Assembly: GCA_030639555.1 (NCBI GenBank)
Contig: DAOWCM010000003.1
Coordinates: 1 to 42,364 of the forward strand
From: Candidatus Eiseniibacteriota bacterium
Lineage (GTDB): Bacteria > Joyebacterota > Joyebacteria > Joyebacterales > Joyebacteraceae
Reading direction: 5' to 3'
DNA: 42,364 nt
In this document: positions 35,014 to 35,163 of the stretch, one piece after another
Layout of the letters: each line of letters starts with the position of its first letter
Numbering within the stretch: position 1 is the stretch's first letter
Made by a program: the position numbers and the translations under genes
Notes under the pieces: generated by a model
Databases searched by the model: none
What the model was told of the DNA's origin: nothing
What the model saw: only the letters and a program-made list of their open reading frames with translations

Positions 35014-35163
35014 GGCGCGACGAGTCTTCGAGTGAGGGACAACGGGTTTGACCCCGCAACGGTACTCTACCACTGAGTTACACAGTCGATTTAACGGCCG
35101 TGACTGGACTCGAACCAGCGACTCCCGGCTTGACAGGCATGTACTCACTCAGGCATTCGCGCC
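35014..35163 (-). ncRNA. Y RNA 1 (YrlA-like, with permuted tRNA mimic, 150 nt)
   Basis: P1 GGCGCGA/TCGCGCC; ATGC; P2 GAGTGAG/CTCACTC; TACATG; T-arm GCTGG-TTCGAGT-CCAGT, acceptor CACGGCCG, loop TTAAAT, CGACTGTG, D-arm TAACTCAGTGGTAGAGTACC. Confidence 0.8.

Follow-up and report, generated by a model that had tools for sequence, protein, structure and literature searches.

Here we describe Y1, a 150-nt element on the minus strand (35014-35163) that is almost certainly a Y RNA of the YrlA type carrying a permuted tRNA module, opened at the anticodon and closed at the acceptor end. Y1 is the first of five tandem Y RNA units next to a gene for a Ro60/Rsr homologue. The window, by which we mean the whole stretch of 42,364 nucleotides that was analysed, corresponds to contig 86 in a genome bin of 461 contigs and bears the phage markers P22-like portal, terminase large subunit, major head protein and SU10-type adaptor. 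An initial annotation had read Y1 as an inside-out tRNA with swapped 3′ and 5′ halves. All the pieces that it named (T-arm, acceptor strands, TTAAAT loop and D-arm) are present and its coordinates are exact to the base, but the strand is the minus strand and needs correction, and four further Y RNA units downstream were absent from it. The permuted arrangement is ordinary for Y RNAs of the YrlA type rather than peculiar to Y1. Single Y RNAs of this kind have been known before; what is new, as far as the searchable literature goes, is the array.

Read from 5′ to 3′, Y1 opens with P1 (GGCGCGA), AUGC, P2 (GAGUGAG), UACAU and a linker, passes through the T-arm, the acceptor 3′ strand, UUAAAU, the acceptor 5′ strand and the D-arm, and closes with a linker and small hairpin, P2′ (CUCACUC), the CUCGUC box and P1′. 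The proposed pairing of the outer stem proved sound, with 7 bp in each part: P1 joins 35157-35163 to 35020-35014, the latter strand overlapping the end of the CUCGUC box, and P2 joins GAGTGAG (35144-35150, between the AAUGC box and UACAU) to CTCACTC (35036-35030). The stem boxes, with the consensus AAUGC...YACAU and CUYGUC, lie around the tRNA body. Within that body the T-arm, GCTGG-TTCGAGT-CCAGT (35103-35119), has a V/T part similar to tRNA positions 46-55 in BLAST comparisons with real tRNAs. It is followed by the acceptor hairpin CACGGCCG-TTAAAT-CGACTGTG (35081-35102), in which the 3′ strand comes first (35102-35095), then the 6-nt closing loop (35094-35089) and then the 5′ strand (35088-35081); across its 8 positions we find the A-C mismatch already reported and also one G-U pair. 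The D-arm TAACTCAGTGGTAGAGT (35064-35080) has a 4-bp stem with GG in the loop and, taken with the adjoining acceptor end, matches a real tRNA over positions 5-23 at 95% identity (BLAST). All of these features lie on the minus strand.

Enforcing the proposed pairs gives Y1 a folding energy of -51.8 kcal/mol against a minimum of -51.9, a cost of 0.1 kcal/mol. The minimum itself is not unusually low compared with shuffled sequences (z -0.93). Folding energy by itself therefore does not count as evidence, and the case is built on comparison. Upstream, Y1 meets a 151-aa ORF (35145-35600, minus strand) with a P-loop-like motif and no match to families in Pfam, PHROG or NCBIfam. Its stop codon lies within the 5′ strand of Y1, and the coding sequence thereby covers the first 19 nt of the RNA.

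Covariance models support the assignment. The Rfam YrlA model (RF02553), which the initial annotation had suggested running, aligns to Y1 end to end (model 1-114) at 34.5 bits and E=1.3e-5, which together with the adjacent Ro60 gene bears out the reading as a YrlA-type RNA with swapped tRNA halves; another unit of the array, Y3, scores 30.4 bits (E=1.9e-4). Neither reaches the YrlA gathering score of 69 bits, which is a curated cut-off and not a biological feature, and Rfam at gathering threshold gives no match in the window. Related phage Y RNA units obtain 25-55 bits with the same model, and 7 of 14 control genomes have no YrlA match above the gathering score. Y1 has three features of YrlA: the outer stem in two parts, bearing AAUGC and CUYGUC boxes, the permuted tRNA-like module of T-arm, closed acceptor and D-arm, and linkage to a Ro60/Rsr gene (36049-37704, minus strand). 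Linear tRNA models fail here, as had been anticipated: ARAGORN finds 0 tRNA genes in the window, and the Rfam tRNA model mis-threads the Y1 region at 14.4 bits against 29. RNAs with such permuted modules escape both linear tRNA searches and the gathering thresholds of Rfam.

The permuted tRNA fold of Y1 goes beyond chance. The cleanest of the permutation tests is circularisation, in which the insert is written twice: ARAGORN called a tRNA across the junction in 181 of 412 distinct related units, Y1 and Y3 among them, and in 0 of the uncircularised and 0 of the shuffled inserts. When modules were rotated and given a neutral anticodon arm, 39 of 45 were called tRNAs, including all three in the window, compared with 1 in native order and 0-1 with shuffled arms. 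Y1 thus reads as a tRNA after either circularising or rotating, in agreement with the inside-out arrangement first proposed for it. A rotation control that exchanged acceptor strands (36 of 45 called) was discarded because the exchanged strands still pair. Two-segment BLAST matches to real tRNAs of at least 44 bits occur in permuted order in 41 units, in colinear order in 15 and in shuffled sequences in 0; in one related unit (L033 3939-3803) the match to E. coli tRNA-Glu is 96% over positions 7-30 and 85% over 37-62, with the order reversed. Among 51 modules from 33 loci, chosen by T-arm and D-arm only with the acceptor ignored, 6.18 of the 7 acceptor positions are paired, compared with 3.25+-0.15 after the 5′ strands have been exchanged between modules, and several Watson-Crick pair types occur at every position. 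The 118 bacterial modules give 6.18 versus 3.28 with strands swapped. Conservation of an anticodon-stem remnant under the tRNA core was not above chance.

The Ro60 gene (36049-37704) lies about 0.9 kb upstream of Y1 on the same strand and encodes 551 aa. The protein has the TROVE ring plus vWA architecture of Ro60/Rsr, with vWA_Ro60 and TROVE domains above the Pfam cut-off and a MIDAS motif (DVSGSM) whose residues D344/S346/S348 are invariant, and it corresponds to PHROG 850, RNA-binding protein. A profile of 25 relatives matches D. radiodurans Rsr (2NVO) over nearly the full length at E=3.5e-34. The AlphaFold2 model, predicted from an alignment built from locus proteins only, has a pLDDT of 83; its best structure matches are solved Ro60s (9NFA at E=8.7e-21, 1YVP at E=1e-18), and the Ro60 of Thermus phage phiLo (9L5Y) is also among them. 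No second TROVE gene was found elsewhere in the genome bin (G000), and the phage may therefore supply Ro60 to a Ro60-less host, if the bin is that of the host.

The four units downstream of Y1 on the minus strand differ in what they carry. Y2 (34917-34987, 71 nt) is a minimal Y RNA with a 7-bp P1, both boxes and P2 and without a tRNA module, and Y4 (34521-34595, 75 nt) is likewise minimal. Y3 (34773-34906) has a permuted tRNA module with a D-arm of the Gln/Cys type, TAGTGTAATTGGTAGCAC; its module, like that of Y1, is complete, and the two belong to separate D-arm classes. In Y5 (34386-34504), recovered by the scanner and the rotation test, a T-arm and acceptor minihelix is present and a GGGG...CCCC hairpin replaces the D-arm. 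Our motif scanner, which looked for P1, both boxes and P2, recognised Y1 and Y4 as well, and the window holds 5 such Y-like units compared with 0.02 per shuffled window. The Rfam YrlB model (RF02565) has no match in the window at E<=10, Y2 and Y4 included. Promoter and terminator signals near the array were not above chance. The five tandem RNAs should bind the phage Ro60. The minihelix class, with T-arm and acceptor and without D-arm, recurs at L171 6728-6830, L056 7098-7214 and L031 2386-2510, and occurs in bacteria and phages alike.

Related loci show how widespread such arrays are. Viral loci hold up to ten Y RNA units (L004 7741-9815). Among related bacterial Ro60 loci, 75 of 80 have Y RNAs, with up to seven units each, which rules out that arrays are confined to phages and makes them a trait of this Ro60 branch. 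The carriers include Verrucomicrobia, Planctomycetes, Acidobacteria, Rhodobacteraceae and others, with Ro60 about 48-57% identical. A module is absent (no T-arm, at most 90 nt) from 49 of the 156 units in viruses and from 58 of the 256 in bacteria.

Phage and bacterial modules differ in their D-arms. In a comparison of a pattern-sampled viral set, where modules sharing a locus are not independent, with the best 80 of 238 bacterial loci, clustered by phylum, the TAGCTCA-type D-arm is found in 115 of 118 bacterial versus 27 of 52 phage modules, and other types in 3 versus 25 (Fisher p=1.5e-12); the latter phage D-arms are of the Leu/Ser, Glu and Gln/Cys types. Counted by locus, any other D-arm type occurs in 20 of 34 phage versus 3 of 66 bacterial loci, and where a locus has at least two modules, at least two D-arm classes are present in 10 of 13 versus 2 of 41. 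The difference persists in viral loci found via Ro60 rather than through the RNA pattern (4/9, p=4e-4). Within modules the D-arm and V+T-arm classes agree (r 0.187 versus 0+-0.042 expected), and real tRNAs give r 0.239. We rejected strict isotype mimicry, for which the D-arm and T-arm classes do agree but the acceptor sequence does not follow isotype.

Phage Y RNA arrays often sit among phage tRNA genes. In some cases units start within a few bases of where a true tRNA gene ends (L033 1062-1133 and 917-1061, minus strand; L170 near 3020, minus strand), and this closeness suggests that tRNA processing may release the 5′ end of the Y RNA.

Some relatives, though rarely, are opened at the D-loop or at the junction of T-arm and acceptor, or carry a stretch of 23S rRNA. 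D-loop-opened modules occur in bacterial loci (L179 3040-3168, L180 8075-8203, L184 4267-4393, L236 6647-6768 and L250 7028-7157) in the order GGTAGAGC, short anticodon hairpin, V, T-arm, acceptor 3′ strand, loop, acceptor 5′ strand, TAGCTCAG, and 4 of these 5 are called tRNA once circularised. The unit at L059 5114-5243 is opened between the T-arm and the acceptor 3′ strand, retains an anticodon arm with a 6-nt loop, and is a tRNA by ARAGORN after rotation. In three phage Y RNAs the YACA box is immediately followed by an insert resembling 23S rRNA (L033 8884-9069, minus; L035 203-418, plus; L170 2804-3020, minus); in L035 and L170 the insert TAACGGYCCTAAG is identical at 20/20 positions to E. 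coli 23S 1917-1936. This stretch coincides with the I-CeuI homing-site core as well, which offers a rival reading of the insert. Acidobacteria Y RNAs have a recurrent non-tRNA insert, GCGCC..GCGGTGT..CACCGGTGATCCTAAGCTGTTCAYGCGC and variants (L177 4845-4976, L179 4800-4910, L183 4822-4935, L184 4832-4947).

What could such RNAs do? A bacterial Y RNA crystal structure (6CU1) superposes on tRNA by circular permutation (PMC11472068), and in YrlA, whose stem is held by Ro60, the tRNA-like domain is a substrate of TruB and DusA and a binding site for PNPase (PMC8394870). On this analogy we consider it reasonably probable that Y1 acts within a phage Ro60 ribonucleoprotein as an adaptor that docks tRNA-binding host factors. 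The locus, presumably transcribed, would produce this particle, in which, as family membership suggests, each Y RNA would sit at the rim of the Ro60 ring, anchored there by P1/P2 together with its AAUGC and CUYGUC boxes. The far end of Y1, and of Y3, would present a tRNA body entered via the opened anticodon loop, with the acceptor sealed by a short loop; such an RNA may take a tRNA-like fold, but with the anticodon gone and no usable ends, no aminoacylation, CCA addition or decoding is expected. The tRNA face of Y1 would dock a tRNA-binding protein of the host, with PNPase, a step transferred from D. radiodurans and Salmonella, as the likeliest candidate, or else enzymes that modify T- or D-loops. 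During infection, docking would deliver PNPase, modifying activity or structured RNA to Ro60, and the minimal Y2 and Y4 may occupy Ro60 without a docking face, as gates or competitors.

The main rival of this adaptor mechanism, which we regard as unlikely, is decoy action: permuted tRNAs of several classes, stabilised by Ro60, would soak up host proteins that bind tRNA or attack it and thereby spare the real tRNAs in infection. The spread of phage modules and loci over several D-arm classes, the agreement of D-arm and V+T-arm classes within a module and the frequent position among phage tRNA genes fit this, and YrlA, which is left uncut by the Salmonella anticodon nuclease, might inhibit that enzyme, as the authors of PMC7790460 suggest. 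However, the anticodon loop is the very part removed, making decoys of anticodon nucleases unlikely, the acceptor sequences do not track isotype, PADLOC gives no defence-system match, and the full modules in the window are Y1 and Y3 only.

It is more doubtful still that the Y RNAs serve Ro60 solely as a chaperone system, stabilising it and gating its cavity, with the tRNA body merely giving the RNA longevity. Two of the five window units lack a module, as do many viral and bacterial units, but T-arm, D-arm and acceptor are retained in detail with compensatory changes. Permuted tRNA genes have the order 3′ half, loop, 5′ half, which Y1 shares; that Y1 is the precursor of a working tRNA is nevertheless hardly credible, since the 6-nt loop is too small for CCA and discriminator, the anticodon is absent, P1/P2 contain Ro60 boxes and the Ro60 gene is adjacent. 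The chance that Y1 is a decayed tRNA gene or an accidental fold, with which its unremarkable folding energy would agree, is practically negligible given the number of units over expectation, the acceptor covariation and the circularisation results.

Beyond the adaptor mechanism for Y1, we put forward tentatively, as possible rather than probable, that Ro60 of large phages holds a repertoire of permuted tRNA mimics (Leu, Glu, Gln and general) with varied openings and even 23S rRNA-like modules, which would dock or titrate many host RNA-binding factors; the window would be a five-member example. With an array of this kind, the view that Ro60 works with one adaptor would give way to one in which it has several tRNA-shaped adaptors that can stand in for each other. 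Phages would then be a natural library of permuted tRNAs and a direct route to the partners of bacterial and phage Ro60.

Among known systems, phage-borne Rsr and putative Y RNAs have been mentioned before: Y RNAs in mycobacteriophages and, in Listeria phage CKA15, a locus that pairs a putative Rsr with abundant RNAs interpreted as possible Y RNAs (both PMC12282133); a Vibrio jumbo phage has a Ro60-related protein (PMC7765460). In the literature searched, with the primary YrlA papers outside its scope, we found no description of phage Y RNA arrays of several module classes. The window protein resembles Ro60/Rsr proteins (2NVO, 1YVP, 9L5Y) in its full-length profile and fold match, but shares just 16-19% identity with them in structural alignments and scores 65 bits in NCBIfam, against an equivalog cut-off of 900. 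YrlB is not known to carry a tRNA module, and Y2 and Y4 are alike in being short Y RNAs without one, though they do not match its model. Y1 shares with YrlA the P1/P2 stem, the AAUGC and CUUGUC boxes, the permuted order of T-arm, closed acceptor and D-arm, and the Ro60 linkage; it differs in reaching half the gathering score, in being one of five units and in being phage-encoded, and Y3 differs in its D-arm class. The nearest functional parallel is RYPER, the Rsr-Y RNA-PNPase complex (PMC8394870), which like the model proposed here has Ro60 tethered by a Y RNA; it involves one or two RNAs, whereas the window offers several, and PNPase is here the candidate partner.
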